Shown in pieces: positions 48,415-60,318 of a DNA stretch of 64,000 bases (position 1 is the first letter of the stretch; the number at the start of each line of letters is the position of its first letter). Under the pieces are notes generated by a model that did no database searches, was not told where the DNA came from, and worked only from the letters and a program-made list of their open reading frames with translations. The DNA lies in assembly GCA_002162075.1 (NCBI GenBank), contig CP021423.1, forward strand, positions 1,922,001 to 1,986,000. The letters run 5' to 3'. This DNA is from Armatimonadetes bacterium Uphvl-Ar1. GTDB taxonomy: Bacteria; Armatimonadota; Fimbriimonadia; Fimbriimonadales; Fimbriimonadaceae. The translations under genes were made by a program, and so were the position numbers.

Positions 48415-50063
48415 CTACCTGCGTTCAGGCTGAATGAGTGTCTTGGTGCTTACGTTGCTCCAATGAGACGACCGAAGTGCCATGTTAAGACTGGTTCTAA
48501 ACATCAGGCGACCGTCTTGCATTGATGTTGCACGAACTTCGTAGGTTCCCATTAGTTCTGCTTTAGCCAGAACGCTACTCTCCAAGATCTTGGAGAACTC
48601 TTCTATGGTCATATTGGGGTCGATGACGTGTACCCGGTCCATTGCGAAAATTGTGAAGAAGTAGCGATGCTTTCCACTGCCCGCTGGGGCATGGGTCCGA
48701 TATATCCTGTTTCACCTGTGCCATTAAAAAGTTGGACAGCTCCGACGGGGGTGGATACTTGTTGTAGGCGAGGTATCCCGGCCAACAAATAATTTGTATC
48801 GGCCGGAATGTTCAGCATGAACCAGTGAACGAAAGGATTGGGATCTGGATTTGCCGGGCTGGGTGCATCAGGATCGGTGCAGAGGATCATGAACGACTTG
48901 GTTCCGGCGGGTGCGCCTTTCCAAGCCAGCGGCGGGGAGATACCATCTTTGCCCGTATAGGTGGCTGGGATTTCCGCACCGTTTACGAAAGCTGTGCTCG
49001 TTAGCTCGAATTCCGCCTTGACCGGGACATCAGTCTTTATCAGTATCCAAATTGTGCTTACGCCTCTCTCAGTTTTGGTGATTCTTAGTCTCTTGACGAC
49101 ATCCTGGTCTTGGGTCGCTTCCAGCCTCCCGCCCCCACCATTGACCAAGATGAAGGTGTCTTCTCGTCCTGTAGCTTCAGCAATATAGAAAGGAACCCAA
49201 GCCTGTGTCCCAGTCTGCTCTGTCTTGCTGAGTACCAATCGTCCGTCGGACTTGTTAATACTAAGAGACTGATCCTTAAGCAACCCGTTGGTCAGGCGGA
49301 AATATGGGTCTCCCATGTCCTCGATCCTCCAAAGTTGCCCGGGAGACTGCATGGACTGCGCTAGTCCCGGCTGCAACCAACCTTCGAGTACTGTCAGAAA
49401 TCCATGATCATCTTTTGTAAGAAAGCCATTTTCATCCCGGGCGTAGGTGGCGCTTTGCAGACGGTAATAAAAGTTTTTATCAAGTCTCTCCGCGTCACCA
49501 TAATTTGCGTTAACAGGCCCGAACATCAAAGGCGTCTCTGCCTGAACAGGTTCGACCTTGATGTCAGTCTTGTTCAATTTCCACACTTGGCCGTCGGTTT
49601 GTCGAGTTTTACCGAGTTTCGTTCCCATTTCGTCGTCCTCGATAGACTGGTCCGCTTGCCAGCGATTAGTCAGGCGAAAGCCGTTTGCATTACCAGATAT
49701 CTTCCATTGTTGGGCTGTTCGATCTGCAGTTGGGCGGAGCGCCATGTAGCGGTAATCGGGGATATCTTTGCTTTGGACGACCTCAAGAGACATGTTGGGC
49801 TGCGAGGTGTGGATCATACGGAAGAAGCCGTTGCCCAAGTCCTGGAATCTCCAAAGCGGCCTGAGTGCTTCAGACGGATTCCTCATTGCCGGTTTGATAC
49901 CTTCTTCATCCTCTCTTAGATCTAGAACCCAGTCTTCCGTGCCTGTGTCCTTAGCGTCGCTGGTCAGGCGGTAGTAAACCTTTGAATCAATACTCTGTGC
50001 GTGAACCGACACGAACAGAAGAAGAAGACTGAGAACGGAGAGGAAGAGGCGCAAATGATGCAT
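48415..50063 (-). CDS. Secreted double ricin-like plus PEBP protein, frameshifted
   Basis: The frame starting at ATG 50063 (signal peptide LRLFLSVLSLLLLFVSVHAQ) has two ricin-like regions of ~150 residues, then the PEBP domain (FVHWFMLNIPADTNY). It breaks at GYIGPMP. Adding one base to the G4 run at 48686-48689 restores GYIGPMPPAGSGKHRYFFTIF and joins the frame ending at 48415, as in the paralogue. The restored length is ~549 residues. The relationship to the shorter neighbour suggests tandem duplication, with the extra ricin repeat gained here or lost there. Confidence 0.75.
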
Positions 50064-51209: not shown

Positions 51210-52529
51210 TTAGAACCCGTCAACTGAATTGAAAACGTTCAGCGTTCCCATACCAAGATTCACATCCGGATTAAAACTCGATCGTCCCAAAGCACTTTGC
51301 AGATCACTGTAAGTAGCGTCTGGCTTTCGAGAAAGCATCTTAGCCGCCATCCCCGACACCAGTGGAGCCGCGAACGAAGTCCCCCATCCACCTGCGTACC
51401 GTTGACCAGGGAATGGCAAGTAAAGCCCTTCACCCGGAGCCGCAACCCAAGTGACATCTACTCCGGCATTGCTAAACCGACTCCGAACATTCCGAGCATC
51501 CACAGATGCCACACTCGTAACTTTCTCATGCCGGGCCGGATAGCTCAGCGGATTCGTCAAGCCATCATTCCCGGCGGATGCGACCAATATAATCCCCCGA
51601 TCCGAGACATCATTGACCGTTCTCTCCATTTCCGAAGAATAAGTATAAGTATTCAGCGACAGATTGACAACTTTCGCTCCTCGTTGCTCCGCCAAGTGAA
51701 TTCCTTCGATCACATGGAATAGTCGGCCCTGCCCATTCTGACCAAACGCCCGAATCGGCAGAATACGAGCCGTCGGCGCAACCAGGTGAATGGCCCCCGC
51801 CACCATCGTCCCATGGCCCAGTCCAATCGGAATCTGACTGAAGGACGAATTGAGCCGAACACTTCTTTCCCACGCTGGTGCGTGACCATTGGACAAATGA
51901 TTAAAGTCCCGTTGCAACAACGGAATGGTCGTTGGGTTGATGATCGCCAAAATGTTTGTCGGAAGTCCAGTCAACTCAGATCCCGTCCCCCGTCGATCAA
52001 TCAAGTCAATTCCAGAAACCACAACCCGGCTGAGTGAGGTATGAGTACCGTCAACTCCTGTATCGATCACTGCTACCGTTCCCGACCCACCTCCATGAAC
52101 ACCCCAAGAAGGCACGGCGTTGGTTTGGTACCCTGCCAATTGCTGGACAAATCCCCCCGGAAGACTCGAACCAAAAAAGTTGGTTGGTCTCGTATTCTTG
52201 AACGCCATCGTCAAAGCCCGCTCTCCAGATACCTCAGGCTGCCTAAAATTCAATATCGGGAGCCGTACGATTTGATCCTGCTCAATCGAAACGTCGTCAT
52301 CCGTTTCATCCGAAATCTGCTGGATCAACGCCGCTGGATTCCGACGCAATGGGTCAATCACCGCATGAATCGGTCGATTCGCAACCGTCCGTTCCAGTTT
52401 CAACTGATACCGCGCCAGGAATGAGCTCAACGGCTCACTCTCCGTGTAACGCATGATGAAACGAGACTGGGCGGAAGCAACGGAACTCACGGCAACAAGG
52501 CCGATCAAAATCAAGGACTTAACTTTCAT
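51210..52529 (-). CDS. Secreted subtilisin-like (S8) serine protease
   Basis: 439 residues from ATG 52529 (signal peptide MKVKSLILIGLVAVSSVASAQ); a longer frame to 52781 is ignored because it overlaps the previous gene. A propeptide-like region lies before residue ~100. Triad: Asp156 in VAVIDTGVD, His239 in GHGTMVAGA, Ser385 in GTSFAAPLVSG; oxyanion Asn321 in ASAGND. All are present, so it is likely active outside the cytoplasm. It is the last gene of an ECF/CHAT operon and overlaps the previous gene by 11 bp. Confidence 0.92.
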   Translation of the reverse strand: MKVKSLILIGLVAVSSVASAQSRFIMRYTESEPLSSFLARYQLKLERTVANRPIHAVIDPLRRNPAALIQQISDETDDDVSIEQDQIVRLPILNFRQPEVSGERALTMAFKNTRPTNFFGSSLPGGFVQQLAGYQTNAVPSWGVHGGGSGTVAVIDTGVDGTHTSLSRVVVSGIDLIDRRGTGSELTGLPTNILAIINPTTIPLLQRDFNHLSNGHAPAWERSVRLNSSFSQIPIGLGHGTMVAGAIHLVAPTARILPIRAFGQNGQGRLFHVIEGIHLAEQRGAKVVNLSLNTYTYSSEMERTVNDVSDRGIILVASAGNDGLTNPLSYPARHEKVTSVASVDARNVRSRFSNAGVDVTWVAAPGEGLYLPFPGQRYAGGWGTSFAAPLVSGMAAKMLSRKPDATYSDLQSALGRSSFNPDVNLGMGTLNVFNSVDGF

Positions 52530-53052
52530 TGGGAATCTCCACTCGGAAAATCTGGTTGGTTTGCAAAACGTGAAACTGCAAAGTGCGCGACTGATCCAGA
52601 TGCAAGCTGAATTGACCATCTTCATCGCAAGAAGTGAGCCATTCCGACTCAGTCCCGACCCGAACATCAACTGGCTCGTCGGATTCAAAAACCCCAGCAA
52701 CAAAAACTTTGTCTGCCTGAATGTCAAACTCGGTCCGAACATCCAAGAGAGCTCCATCAAACTCAAATCGGAACGAATCAACTTTAGACGCGGTTGAACG
52801 GAGTCCCGTCGGGCCGGCTGGGGAAGGAATCAGCTTTCCAAAAAGCAAAGGAATCGTCCGATCTTGACCAACCAGAAGAGCCTTTGCTCTGAGCTTCCAA
52901 AGCTCCGGTGCCTCTTCTCGCCCTGCTTCATGCACGGCAAGCATTTGGCTCGCCTTTGTCATTGCATCCGGATCAGCTTCAATCGCCGACACAATATCCG
53001 GCGCCGCAATTCCTCGAGCATAGTCAACAATCTGTTCCCAGGTCGGTTTCAT
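52519..53052 (-). CDS. Protein of unknown function between CHAT and subtilisin genes
   Basis: 177 residues. An acidic helical N-terminal half (IVDYARGIAAPDIVSAIEAD, PELWKLRAKALLVG) is followed by a beta-rich C-terminal half (FRFEFDGALLDVRTEFD, VFVAGVFESDEPVDVRVG). No membrane segment. By position it could be an anti-sigma factor, a CHAT substrate or a partner of the sigma factor. No motif supports any one of these directly. Confidence 0.6.
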   Translation of the reverse strand: MKPTWEQIVDYARGIAAPDIVSAIEADPDAMTKASQMLAVHEAGREEAPELWKLRAKALLVGQDRTIPLLFGKLIPSPAGPTGLRSTASKVDSFRFEFDGALLDVRTEFDIQADKVFVAGVFESDEPVDVRVGTESEWLTSCDEDGQFSLHLDQSRTLQFHVLQTNQIFRVEIPNES

Positions 53053-53061
53053 CGGTCTCTC

Positions 53062-55638
53062 TCATCTGTCATGGACACCCTGATCGAACATCAGGACATC
53101 TTTTTCACAATCTAATCCTGTAAATGCAAAAGTCGCCCAATCACCAGGATGAGGCCACTGCTCTCGGGTTTTCCGACACGCTTCTGCGTACGAAGCCAAA
53201 GGCGTCTGTGTTTGTAACCCCTGGTAAAAGTTCGACATCCACGCCAAAGCTGGCTCATCCGCCGCATCCCACAGCGAAGCCACTACCGACCGGCAACCCG
53301 AAGCAAACATGGCCTCAATAAACCCTTGCGATTCAAATGCTTCACCGAGAAGAGAAACCCCGGTCGAACACCCACTCAACACAACTAAATCTGCCTCCAT
53401 GTCCATTTGTAAAACCTCCAATACCGTAAATCGATTCTCGCCTAACTGCATCGCGCTGAAGAGCGGCAAATCTTCCCTGACAATCCCATGAGCTGCAATA
53501 TGAATATGTTGAGCACCGGAAATTTCTGATCTCAAAGCATGGAACTCCCGAACAGGAGTAACTCCCGCGAAATGGCTTACAATCTCAACTTCTCGGGCAA
53601 TTTGCGGCGCATTGTCATCTGCAAAACCCAGAACAACGCTTCCCTTACCTCGCCGGCGATCTCGACTCAGCATCGAACGCCAAGCCGAAAAGCTGGGTGC
53701 ATATCCAATCGCGACTTCATCAATCATCGACCCCGAACCGTAGGGCAACGCATGGAACGGAATCGTTAAAATCGGACCGTCTCGACCGATAGTAACCACA
53801 TTCGTATTCTCACCAAAAGCGGGTTCGATAAAATCCATAATTCGTCGGAGTGCTTTATCAACAAGTCTCTCCCCACTCACCGACCTCCGCAATCGGTTCA
53901 AATGGAAAAAGTGAATCGAGTTTCTCAATTCAGATAGCTCACCTAGCCGATGCTCCTGAATCCCCGACGAAGAAATTGAAAACGCAAACAAGGTGCCGCA
54001 ATCAACAAAAAACTCTATAAAGCCATGACCTTCATTCATCGTTGATATCGTTTGCTCTTGGTCCAAAGGCGCATAGGTCAGAGTCAAATTTTCTCTGTAC
54101 GTCCGAACTGCTTCCACTTCTCCAGTTCCTTCACGCTGATCAGACGACCTTTGCCCCGTACGGCTCGTACGAATCATCTCGCCCAAGCCCTGGTCTTTCA
54201 GCCGCGCAACAACGCCAAGGCGTTCACCCGGTGAGCTGAGTGTTCGGAAGCACTCGCGCAGCGCCAACTCATTTGCTACAGCATGGGCTCGCCGCAATCC
54301 GTGAGAACCTAACTGGCTTCGCGCCCCGTCGTACTCCGACAAAGCTTGCCGGGCAAATTCTCGGGCAGGGTCGGGAAGCTGAACCGTCCGGTAAAAAGCC
54401 GCTTTTAAATCCGGCGATTGATCAACCTTCAAAAGCTCATTTGCTTCACCGTAATCACCCGCTTCAAGCGCAAGCTGAATCGCCGTCCTCCGAATCAAGG
54501 GGATCCGTTCCGCCGAAGGCTCCAGGGCCAACGCTTGAGTGATGTGCAATCTCGCCTTATTCACTTGACCTAATCGCATCAAAATTTCTGAAGCGTTTAG
54601 CTCGGCCAATGCGAGCCAGTTCAAACTCCTCTCTTTCCCCAGCCGCTTTTTCGCTGCCTGTAGGAGTTCTCGTGCGACCTGGACTTGACCTCGTTTCAAA
54701 GATGCAATCGACTCTATGAGGTAGCTCTTTCCAATTTCCAACCGGGCACCAACTGATTCAAAGACATCCCTTGCATCGCGAGCCGCTTGAATGGCATCGC
54801 TGAAGAGCCCCGCATTCAACATAAAATCTGACTGATCTAGCAAGCAGTGTCCTACTTTCAATCCCGCATTCGGCGGGCGCCGCTCCAGCAAACTTCTGTA
54901 AAGCGTAAGAGATTCAAACAAATTGCCCTTTCTTCCCAAAAGGTATGCCTGGTTAAGCTCTACCTCATACGCCAAAAGCGACTGCTCGGTCGACGTGAAG
55001 AACTCAAATGCCTTCTGAAACAATTCTTGTGCCCGATCAAACTCCAATTGCGCCATGAGGCAAACCGCAAAATTGTGAGCAACTATTGCCGCATCCGCTT
55101 CCGCACCATTCTCTATGAGAGTCGGAAAAGCAATCTCAAATTGAACGATCGCTTCCTCAAGCCGGTCCTGGCGATGCAACATATTTCCAAAGTTCGCTCG
55201 GACTCTCGCCGCCCGAAAAAAATCGCCAATATCCTCAAAAGTTGTGATCGCCCCGCCGGCAATCCGCTCCGCATCATCATATCGCCCAACATAACCGAGA
55301 GCCTGAATCATCGCAACGGCCGTATTCGCCCGCTCAACCGCATCCGATTCAAACTGAATCAAGGCCTCTTGATATTTTAGAATCGCATCTTTCGGTTGAT
55401 CACTCAGCAAAAAGACATGTCCCGCAAATCGATGAGCCTGGCCCGCAAGCACTGGTTCACCCAGGGACTGAGCGAGTTTCTCCGCACTTTTTGCCAGAAC
55501 TCCGGCCCGCCGAACATCTTCGCGAATCGCCCCCATCCCATTCTGAATCAAAAGCCCAACGGTTTCCGGAGTTCTCAAGGCTGCGGGTGGGAGCTTGGCT
55601 CGACCCGATAACCCCGAAATCCAATCCTCCGCTTTCAT
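53062..55638 (-). CDS. TPR-CHAT caspase-like protease
   Basis: 858 residues. The N-terminal ~440 residues are TPR-type helical repeats (LAQSLGEPVLAGQAHRFAGH, AEADAAIVAHNFAVCLMAQL). A linker follows, then a CHAT (caspase-HetF-associated) domain with His717 in HIHIAAHGIVRED and Cys757 in LVVLSGCSTGVSLL, the catalytic dyad of clan CD. The end has VVASLWDAADEPALAWMSNFY. Its ATG overlaps the ECF sigma factor's stop (ATGA). Substrate and trigger unknown. Confidence 0.92.
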   Translation of the reverse strand: MKAEDWISGLSGRAKLPPAALRTPETVGLLIQNGMGAIREDVRRAGVLAKSAEKLAQSLGEPVLAGQAHRFAGHVFLLSDQPKDAILKYQEALIQFESDAVERANTAVAMIQALGYVGRYDDAERIAGGAITTFEDIGDFFRAARVRANFGNMLHRQDRLEEAIVQFEIAFPTLIENGAEADAAIVAHNFAVCLMAQLEFDRAQELFQKAFEFFTSTEQSLLAYEVELNQAYLLGRKGNLFESLTLYRSLLERRPPNAGLKVGHCLLDQSDFMLNAGLFSDAIQAARDARDVFESVGARLEIGKSYLIESIASLKRGQVQVARELLQAAKKRLGKERSLNWLALAELNASEILMRLGQVNKARLHITQALALEPSAERIPLIRRTAIQLALEAGDYGEANELLKVDQSPDLKAAFYRTVQLPDPAREFARQALSEYDGARSQLGSHGLRRAHAVANELALRECFRTLSSPGERLGVVARLKDQGLGEMIRTSRTGQRSSDQREGTGEVEAVRTYRENLTLTYAPLDQEQTISTMNEGHGFIEFFVDCGTLFAFSISSSGIQEHRLGELSELRNSIHFFHLNRLRRSVSGERLVDKALRRIMDFIEPAFGENTNVVTIGRDGPILTIPFHALPYGSGSMIDEVAIGYAPSFSAWRSMLSRDRRRGKGSVVLGFADDNAPQIAREVEIVSHFAGVTPVREFHALRSEISGAQHIHIAAHGIVREDLPLFSAMQLGENRFTVLEVLQMDMEADLVVLSGCSTGVSLLGEAFESQGFIEAMFASGCRSVVASLWDAADEPALAWMSNFYQGLQTQTPLASYAEACRKTREQWPHPGDWATFAFTGLDCEKDVLMFDQGVHDR

Positions 55639-56201
55639 ATCACGCCACGCGACCGAAGCGCCTTGGACAGAGCTTCCAAGCAGCGAAGCCTTGTATTTCC
55701 CATACTTCCCGCACTGAGCCCCATTTCTTCTGCAATCTCCGCATAACTCCGCGGCTCCTCTTCAAAGAACAACGCACGAATCAACTTTTGGCACTGCTCT
55801 TTGAGTGAAGATACAGCCAAATCAACCAAAAGAACTCGCTCAGATGCCTCGACTTCGTCAACATGCGAACCATCAATGAGGAGTTCTTCATGGGTCAATT
55901 CAGTGAACCTCTCTAACTTCTTTCTGAGCCGAATTGCATGGCGAACCGTCGTCTGCCGAATCCATGGACCCAAATAGTCTCGGTTTTGCATCGATGGCAA
56001 TGCTTTGAACAATTCAACAAAAACATACTGAAAGGCGTCAGGTTGCTCCGCTTCTGGCAAGCGAGTCGACCGCAACAAACTCATTACATAACTCGAATAG
56101 CGATCAACAATTTTCGCCCAGGCATCGGCATCATTCACCAGGGCTCGGCGCACGAGTGGGCCATCGTCCCACTTCCCTTCCTGGATATTTCGCCTGAACA
56201 T
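55635..56201 (-). CDS. ECF-type RNA polymerase sigma factor
   Basis: 188 residues from ATG 56201; a longer frame to 56315 is unlikely because it begins with a Cys-rich low-quality segment. Sigma-2 region: DADAWAKIVDRYSSYVMSLL, PEAEQPDAFQYVFVELFKAL (QDVFQ-like); sigma-4: SSLKEQCQKLIRALFFEEEP, SYAEIAEEMGLSAGSMGNTRLRCLEALSKAL (HTH). First gene of the operon with TPR-CHAT, unknown and subtilisin genes, so it may control their expression. Confidence 0.92.
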   Translation of the reverse strand: MFRRNIQEGKWDDGPLVRRALVNDADAWAKIVDRYSSYVMSLLRSTRLPEAEQPDAFQYVFVELFKALPSMQNRDYLGPWIRQTTVRHAIRLRKKLERFTELTHEELLIDGSHVDEVEASERVLLVDLAVSSLKEQCQKLIRALFFEEEPRSYAEIAEEMGLSAGSMGNTRLRCLEALSKALRSRGVI

Positions 56202-56318
56202 TGAACCTAATTTACCTCTCAACAAAAAATTACAAAAACAAATGTCACTCATCGCTGATGCTTTGTCCCTTTGATGATGTGGCAACCCCAGCAGGGGCAC
56301 AAGACAGGAAAACAAAAA

Positions 56319-57236
56319 ATGAAAAACCTCATCTTCACAATTGCAAGCAGCATGGTCGCAGCCGTGGCCCTCGGTAACAACGTCAGCGCAGAACTCACGA
56401 GTAACGACCTAAACATCTACGGAGATGCCTTCAGCAACGACGTCCGCGTTGTCCAAATCGTCGGTGGCGTCCGCGTGATTGGACAAAACGGCACTCTCGT
56501 CAATGGCCTCCCGAGCGTCACCTTCCGCACTGGATCGCTTGTCAACGTGACCGGACTCATGGATGGCGGCAACGACCGACTCGCATTTGTTGCCATCGGC
56601 AATATCGGCGACATCAGCATGGAAGGCGGACAAGGTGACGACCAACTCATTTTGACTCGCGCCGCTGGCCAAGGCAACGTCTCATTGAAGGGCGAAGAGG
56701 GCAACGATCGAGCCGTCTTCACCGATTCAAGTGCCGCTGGTGATGTTATTCTTGACCTCGGAATTGGCGCAAACGTCATCAATGCTCAACGATTTACTTC
56801 TGGGTTCAACTTCGAAGCATTTGGTGGAGATTTGAACGACAACTTCAACATCGGTGCCAGCACAATCGGTGGAAGCCTCAGCCTCAATGCTGACAAAGGC
56901 AACGACATCATCAATATCTCGAACGTTTTGACAGGAATCTCTGCCGGAATTTTCACCGACGAAGGAGCAGATCGAGTAACCGTTTCCGGTCTCCAAGCCG
57001 GTTTCGACGTGATTGTTGGCACAGGTGCCCAAAATGACATTGTCAGCCTGACCAACGTCACGGCCCTCGCTAATCTTGAAGTGAACCTCGACGAAGGTAA
57101 TGACACATTCACCGCGTCCAGCGTCTCGGCGGCGTTCGATGCAAAAGCAATCGGCGGCTCCGGAACCGACCGATTCCGCAACTTTGGATTTGCCGGCGGA
57201 CTCAAGACCGAAGTTCTTGAATTCGAACTTTTCTAA
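56319..57236 (+). CDS. Secreted Asp-rich repeat protein (calcium-binding-like)
   Basis: 305 residues from ATG 56319 (signal peptide MKNLIFTIASSMVAAVALGN...SAE). At least nine DxGND-type repeats of 20-24 residues are seen: GGNDRLAFVA, GQGDDQLILT, GEEGNDRAVFT, DKGNDIINIS, DEGADRVTVS, DEGNDTFTAS, GGSGTDRFRNF. These resemble RTX-like or Ca-binding beta-roll turns and could form a parallel beta structure. Followed by a strong terminator. Divergent from the ECF operon, 118 bp away. Confidence 0.75.
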   Translation: MKNLIFTIASSMVAAVALGNNVSAELTSNDLNIYGDAFSNDVRVVQIVGGVRVIGQNGTLVNGLPSVTFRTGSLVNVTGLMDGGNDRLAFVAIGNIGDISMEGGQGDDQLILTRAAGQGNVSLKGEEGNDRAVFTDSSAAGDVILDLGIGANVINAQRFTSGFNFEAFGGDLNDNFNIGASTIGGSLSLNADKGNDIINISNVLTGISAGIFTDEGADRVTVSGLQAGFDVIVGTGAQNDIVSLTNVTALANLEVNLDEGNDTFTASSVSAAFDAKAIGGSGTDRFRNFGFAGGLKTEVLEFELF

Positions 57237-59979: not shown

Positions 59980-60318
59980 ATGAAAAACCAACTCCTCACC
60001 CTTGTCGCTGCAGTTGCCTGTAGCTTTGCCATCATCGGGTGTTCCACCACCGAAGCTCCTGCTACCGACACCAAGCCCGCCGAAACCGGTTCAACCGCAA
60101 CCGCTGAAAAAGCAACCTGCACCGATTGCGGACACGAGATGGACAAGTCCGCTATGAAAGAAGTGGATGGCAAAATGGTCTGTGTCAACTGTGCCGAAAA
60201 GGGTGAAGGAATGCAAACCGCCGACATGATCGACTGCCCCTGTGGTAAGCAAATCGCGGCCGCAGATGCTGTCGAAAAAGATGGCAAAAAAGTCTGCGCC
60301 GACTGCGCTAAAATGTAA
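59980..60318 (+). CDS. Small lipoprotein with Cys-pair (zinc ribbon-like) domain
   Basis: 112 residues from ATG 59980. Lipobox IIGCST near residue 22, then a Thr/Ala/Pro linker. The C-terminal half has eight cysteines as pairs: CTDCGHEM, VCVNCAEK, DCPCGKQI, VCADCAKM. These look like two metal-binding ribbons (or a Ca2+/Zn2+ or thiol store) in the periplasm. No catalytic motif. An ATG codon 2 residues into an annotated longer frame is used because TTG 59974 lacks support. Confidence 0.65.
   Translation: MKNQLLTLVAAVACSFAIIGCSTTEAPATDTKPAETGSTATAEKATCTDCGHEMDKSAMKEVDGKMVCVNCAEKGEGMQTADMIDCPCGKQIAAADAVEKDGKKVCADCAKM

Follow-up and report, generated by a model that had tools for sequence, protein, structure and literature searches.

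CHAT proteases are common in bacteria, and to our knowledge few of their substrates are known. The CalpL/CalpT/CalpS system consists of a Lon-SAVED protease, CRISPR-T and a sigma factor, in which the partner of the sigma factor is cleaved by the protease. In Myxococcus, DdvS is the sigma partner of DdvA. DdvA has a CHAT domain and is, according to the title of its PDB entry (8rw5), an anti-sigma factor in its own right, and DdvS controls an antiphage island (PMC12288465). In type III-E CRISPR, Csx29 cuts Csx30, an inhibitor of an ECF sigma factor, and a parallel between Calp and this protease module was drawn in the same paper (PMC10028731). In the separases, the P1 arginine is held by an aspartate residue, which in the human enzyme is Asp2070, at Cys+41 (PMC12609080, PMC10317155).

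In Actinobacteria, the genes for ECF54 sigma factors are found with carboxypeptidase, subtilase and CHAT genes, as described in the review PMC8999054, which cites Casas-Pastor 2021 and Huang 2015. In that review, anti-sigma factors are said to be absent from the ECF54 loci, for which proteolytic control is proposed.

Gene Organization of the Locus

The window, that is, the whole stretch of 64,000 nucleotides that was analysed (C1:1922001-1986000), is from a single-contig genome of 2.99 Mb. Its closest public record is PNMZ01000001.1 of an uncultured bacterium, with 90% identity. Four consecutive genes of the window encode an ECF sigma factor, a TPR-CHAT protease, a small protein and an S8 subtilase (Table 1). 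The sigma factor and CHAT genes overlap by the 4 bases ATGA, the CHAT gene and that of the small protein are 9 bp apart, and the latter overlaps the subtilase gene by 11 bp. The ORF coordinates thus agreed in full with the layout, overlaps and gap given in the preliminary description of this DNA. The ATG at 56201 was preferred to the upstream in-frame starts of the sigma factor gene, because the gene of a relative (L095) starts there too, and the likely start of the subtilase gene is the ATG at 52529. The CHAT protein is present as a single copy in this genome.

Table 1. Features of the four-gene unit and its upstream region, in window coordinates.
Feature	Position	Strand	Description
ECF sigma factor	55635..56201	(-)	188 aa, regions 2 and 4; sigma70-ECF E=7.8e-19
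TPR-CHAT protease	53062..55638	(-)	858 aa; CHAT 5.2e-31, TPR_12 4.1e-9
Catalytic His717 codon, CHAT protein	53488..53490	(-)	computed
Catalytic Cys757 codon, CHAT protein	53368..53370	(-)	computed
ZAS-derived anti-sigma factor (predicted), soluble	52519..53052	(-)	177 aa; no match to any Pfam/NCBIfam family
Arg85 codon, 177-aa protein	52798..52800	(-)	candidate CHAT cleavage site (P1)
Secreted S8 subtilase	51210..52529	(-)	439 aa, signal peptide; Peptidase_S8 3.8e-38
Sigma/divergent-gene intergenic region	56202..56318	(.)	weak promoter-like element, putative
Divergent secreted-protein gene	56319..57236	(+)	~305 aa; conserved 5' of sigma in 7 loci

Elsewhere in the window, the secreted protein encoded at 48609-50063 combines ricin-like repeats with a phosphatidylethanolamine-binding (YbhB-like) domain. 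The region 60166-60313 contains two imperfect 34-nt direct repeats, which are 114 apart, 76% identical and not CRISPR-like.

Conservation and Gene Order

In a simple protein search, the 177-aa protein was found in 3 of 61 genomes, including that of the window. The CHAT relatives in the order to which this bacterium belongs, however, were often encoded between a sigma factor gene and an S8 gene, and a gene for a protein of ~180 aa, referred to as gene X, was located between the sigma factor and CHAT genes. The product of gene X was homologous to the 177-aa protein of the window (hhalign E=1.2e-8, probability 95.6). A joint profile of the two identified 40 places in 36 of the 113 genomes of the order, of which one was set aside as spurious (E=0.0075, without neighbours) and 39 were kept. 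An ECF sigma factor gene was found at all 39 places, a TPR-CHAT gene at 37/37 and an S8 subtilase gene at 35/35 of those with enough contig; the few places without a CHAT or S8 gene lacked it because the contig ended there. Outside the order, the phylum contributed 10 further full-length X genes from its other classes, which were beside CHAT genes in 9/9 and beside S8 genes in 8/8 of the places with enough contig. In these classes, the sigma factor gene was mostly adjacent to X or no more than 2 kb from it. In one case it was encoded on the other strand, and at 1 of the 10 places no sigma factor gene was found. The linkage of the four genes, on which the preliminary description depended, was found at every place of the order with enough contig and, with the sigma factor gene less tightly linked, in other classes, and the four genes almost certainly constitute a conserved unit.

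Two gene orders were observed. Most loci had sigma-X-CHAT-S8 (order 1), and the window and eight other loci had sigma-CHAT-X-S8 (order 2). The order-2 loci were monophyletic in all four gene trees (support 0.94, 0.96, 0.98, and 0.88). The distance matrices of the genes were correlated, with r ranging from 0.81 to 0.97, which was reached in none of 2000 permutations, and for order 1 alone r ranged from 0.59 to 0.82. Given the monophyly of order 2 and these correlations, the swap was most likely a single event, and the genes of the unit were inherited together.

L088:1113-2291 and L105:1599-2780 each contain an additional S8 subtilase gene close to the four-gene unit. In genome G040, L053:3686-7827 is an operon for a sigma factor, a 316-aa protein with the zinc motif HVAACKSC and a TPR-CHAT protein, without a subtilase. 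It is a second, separate sigma/ZAS/CHAT arrangement within the order.

The Small Protein as a Probable Anti-Sigma Factor

At one aligned place, 16 of 39 family members possess an H-x3-C-x2-C motif, which is the zinc motif of the ZAS anti-sigma factors. The zinc ligands are absent from the copy in the window. As individual sequences, members of the family matched Pfam zf-HC2 only weakly (E 0.005-0.26), below the Pfam cut-off. A phylum-wide search with the family profile, however, drew in many proteins that matched no more than its first ~80 positions. All 10 of those inspected contained the motif, 9 of the 10 adjoined an ECF sigma factor gene, and the three that were compared with Pfam matched zf-HC2 at E 1e-9 to 1e-10. 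No transmembrane-like stretch was found in any member of the family. The structure predicted from 38 sequences (pLDDT 86) had four helices within residues 5-59, a linker at ~60-90 and a beta sandwich at 91-172. The profile and the motif indicate that the family is very probably of the soluble ZAS type, and the small protein of the window is, by the same sequence evidence, highly likely to be an anti-sigma factor. It is called ZAS-derived rather than ZAS proper, because its own copy is without the motif, which is found in 16/39 members.

The preliminary description had compared the small protein to Csx30. A role as sigma inhibitor is very probable, as stated above, with a domain of the ZAS type. 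The family profile, however, found no sequence match among PDB chains, including Csx30. The C-terminal domain had only generic beta-sandwich matches, with Z up to 8.5 and without Csx30 among the fold matches listed, and homology to Csx30, which such comparisons may miss, was not supported.

The TPR-CHAT Protein

The CHAT protein is composed of a TPR solenoid (~24-490) and a caspase-like CHAT domain (~609-841), and its structure was predicted with a pLDDT of 90.2 and a pTM of 0.87. H713, H717, C757, W790, and D794 were invariant in 36/36 CHAT proteins, of which H717 and C757 are the catalytic pair. In fold comparisons, the model was closest to Csx29 (8eey_B; Z 29.1), followed by separases (~25) and Arg-gingipain (18.9), and it matched Myxococcus DdvA (8rw5) with Z 18.2 over 575 residues. 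Sequence profiles ranked Csx29-type proteins (E 8e-9) before DdvA (4.6e-7) and separase (3.5e-5). The CHAT domain is thus related to Csx29, DdvA and separase alike, and its closeness to Csx29 bore out its likening to the TPR-CHAT protein of type III-E systems. Against the Csx29 family NF041237 of NCBIfam, however, the protein scored 12.2 bits at a cut-off of 300, and it is a structural relative only. The relatives of the CHAT proteins on plasmids were generic CHAT proteins, except for a locus of Nonomuraea, and a search for defence systems gave only a weak match to BovA (1.6e-4) and a generic subtilase match.

By spacing, with the separase numbers taken from the papers, the residue at Cys+41 is Leu798, and the invariant Asp794 is located one turn earlier. 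As Leu798 is non-acidic, a separase-like S1 pocket was dropped as proof of arginine specificity, which is not readable from the sequence because the S1 aspartate has no acidic counterpart by spacing.

The Invariant Arginine of the Linker

Among 38 aligned family members, only Met1 and Arg85 were invariant. When members from other classes were included, Arg85 was conserved in 48/48 sequences, and the next-best interior column reached 90%. This residue is in the linker, in a context of mostly small residues, G/A-x-R-S/G/A, and next to residues 81-84, which were predicted with the lowest confidence (pLDDT <50). Retention of an arginine in a flexible linker, in a family of which the zinc site can be lost, would fit a protease site, and the alignment and the model together make Arg85 a predicted candidate for the P1 residue of a CHAT cleavage site in a disordered linker. 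Cleavage of the small protein by the CHAT protein is probable, and the chance that it occurs at Arg85 is about even. The invariant arginine could also be structural or could contact the sigma factor.

Subtilase, Divergent Gene, and Promoter Element

The triad Asp156, His239, and Ser385 and the oxyanion Asn321 of the S8 subtilases were invariant in 36/36. Their N-termini, as judged by eye from the listed starts, are hydrophobic signal sequences. The subtilase had been described as secreted and as the output of the cascade: the former was supported by the signal peptides, and the latter would follow from the mechanism proposed below. Secreted-protein genes were also found divergent from the sigma factor gene, and they belonged to a family of ~300 aa in 7 order-2 loci and to another family of 120-150 aa in 11 order-1 loci. 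The ~305-aa protein of the window had no match in Pfam, and its gene is a possible target of the sigma factor.

The preliminary description had also proposed a check for a promoter motif upstream of the sigma factor gene and the divergent gene. The element [AG][AG]G[AG]G-N14-18-TGATACA preceded the sigma factor gene in 8/34 loci, compared with a mean of 0.007 in shuffled sequences, and all eight were of order 1. In the form AAGAGG-N15-17-TGATACA it was found at L037, L041, L043, L087, L099, L101, L106, and L107, and it is a possible promoter of this sigma group. The window is not among these eight loci, and no more than a weaker variant of the element is located 5' of its sigma factor gene. 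Since the element was found in 8/34 loci, all of order 1, the suggestion of autoregulation by the sigma factor is limited to a part of the family. General sigma-70 promoters, like terminators, did not exceed chance.

Proposed Mechanism

As a whole, the explanation that we favor, and regard as somewhat better than evenly supported, is a chromosomal switch for sigma release. In the resting cell, the N-terminal anti-sigma domain of the small soluble protein would, by its homology to ZAS, hold the ECF sigma factor. The TPR-CHAT protein would be a cytoplasmic, separase-like cysteine protease, of which the TPR solenoid would take an internal signal. When active, it is predicted to cut the anti-sigma factor in the linker that joins its anti-sigma domain to its beta domain, with Arg85 as the most likely P1 residue. 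The cut would weaken or destabilize the inhibitor, and the sigma factor would be free to transcribe its own operon and probably also the divergent secreted-protein gene. The outputs would be the exported subtilase and the divergent secreted protein; the odds that sigma release occurs with the S8 subtilase as output are evenly divided. That a protease frees the sigma factor had been proposed before, and with a conserved unit that includes a very probable anti-sigma factor and an intact His/Cys pair this is still the most economical model, in which the cut itself is a prediction.

Of the other explanations, the one that survives best, at a low probability, is that the small protein is the anti-sigma factor without being a substrate of the CHAT protein. 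The TPR solenoid of the CHAT protein would instead bind the small protein or the sigma factor, as a non-proteolytic scaffold or co-inhibitor and a split version of DdvA. This would be consistent with the TPR-CHAT fold of DdvA, which its PDB title calls a transmembrane anti-sigma factor, and with the separase-type arginine pocket residue that is not kept by spacing. The catalytic His and Cys, however, would be needless in a pure scaffold and are nevertheless invariant, and the linker arginine was never replaced in the 48 family members.

It is improbable that there is no anti-sigma factor and that the CHAT protein, the subtilase or both degrade the sigma factor or an unrelated substrate, with the small protein as an adaptor. 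Proteolytic control of this kind was proposed in PMC8999054 for ECF54 loci that contain carboxypeptidase, subtilase and CHAT genes, and such a locus was seen in Nonomuraea. The small-protein family of this phylum, however, has a recognizable ZAS anti-sigma domain, and S8 subtilases with signal peptides should not meet the sigma factor. Similarly improbable is another CHAT target (the subtilase zymogen, the secreted protein while still in the cell, or a protein encoded elsewhere) with a sigma/anti-sigma pair that answers a different signal such as redox: certain relatives retain the zinc motif, of the type by which soluble ZAS proteins sense oxidative stress (PMC8999054), but most, including that of the window, have lost it and never the linker arginine, and the CHAT and small-protein genes stay adjacent even where the sigma factor gene is farther off.

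Comparison with Described Systems

In the four-gene unit, as in type III-E systems with Csx29, Csx30 and CASP-sigma (PMC10028731), a TPR-CHAT protease, an ECF sigma factor and an inhibitor of the latter, which is a probable one in the unit, are encoded together. Different from these systems, a subtilase is present, the candidate cut is after an arginine, and CRISPR and the RAMP protein are absent. A RAMP protein (PF03787; Cas7-11/gRAMP) was not found in the single-contig genome, and the same search gave matches in 4 control genomes. CRISPR-like repeats were not found in the 38-64 kb part of the window. Absence of gRAMP and CRISPR had been noted before and was upheld; a link to type III-E beyond the CHAT family was not found, whether as a match to Csx30, a RAMP protein or CRISPR-like repeats nearby. 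The search of the genome for the Csx29 family gave no match and was also silent in the controls, so that it carries no weight.

With its predicted anti-sigma function and a TPR-CHAT fold tied to an ECF sigma factor, the unit resembles DdvA-DdvS of Myxococcus. DdvA, however, is one membrane protein, whereas the parts are separate here, with a soluble anti-sigma factor and no adjoining defence genes. Given the antiphage role of DdvS, a phage-related signal would by analogy be possible for this unit too. Like eukaryotic separase, the CHAT protein combines superhelical repeats with a clan CD protease and its His/Cys pair; the two differ in their substrates and in the S1 aspartate, which is unmatched by spacing here. 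Calp also has a protease with a sigma-factor partner, but its protease is unrelated and functions within a CRISPR system.

Similar to the ECF54 loci, for which proteolytic control was proposed, an ECF sigma factor, a TPR-CHAT protein and an S8 subtilase are encoded together here. The ECF54 loci are described without an anti-sigma factor in PMC8999054, whereas the fourth gene here encodes a predicted ZAS-derived anti-sigma factor, and the phylum and the gene order are different. In Nonomuraea gerenzanensis, L158:2265-6945 encodes an S8 subtilase, a sigma factor, a 147-aa CarboxypepD_reg-like protein (E 0.005) and a CHAT protein. It looks like a published ECF54 context, and its "carboxypeptidase" may be just a regulatory-like beta domain that occupies the position of the anti-sigma factor. 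The 147-aa protein has TIRS ahead of the beta domain. Its homology to the 177-aa family is not claimed (hhalign E 0.09).

Because ECF sigma, CHAT and subtilase genes were already reported together for ECF54 in PMC8999054, the gene association itself is not new. A literature search for the four-gene unit found nothing beyond the ECF54 context. Added here are the identity of the anti-sigma factor, the invariant arginine, the phylum-wide survey and the history of the gene order, and the anti-sigma factor and the arginine appear to be new. We tentatively suggest, at somewhat less than an even chance, a phylum-wide, CRISPR-independent module in which a separase-like TPR-CHAT protease would cut a soluble anti-sigma factor after an invariant arginine and free an ECF sigma factor, with a subtilase as output. 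The ECF54 loci would then represent this module too, with an anti-sigma factor that is degenerate and went unrecognized, and the TPR-CHAT/sigma theme would have been adapted in other ways in type III-E CRISPR and in DdvA.

In this unit, a protease can be assigned a likely substrate and even a likely scissile residue, next to the sigma factor that would be freed, which makes the question of what stand-alone TPR-CHAT proteases cut directly testable in a system of four proteins. The unit also provides a possible answer to a question of the ECF literature, namely that of the loci with CHAT and subtilase genes that supposedly are without an anti-sigma factor. In addition, it shows that type III-E CRISPR is not the only setting in which CHAT proteins and sigma factors are paired.
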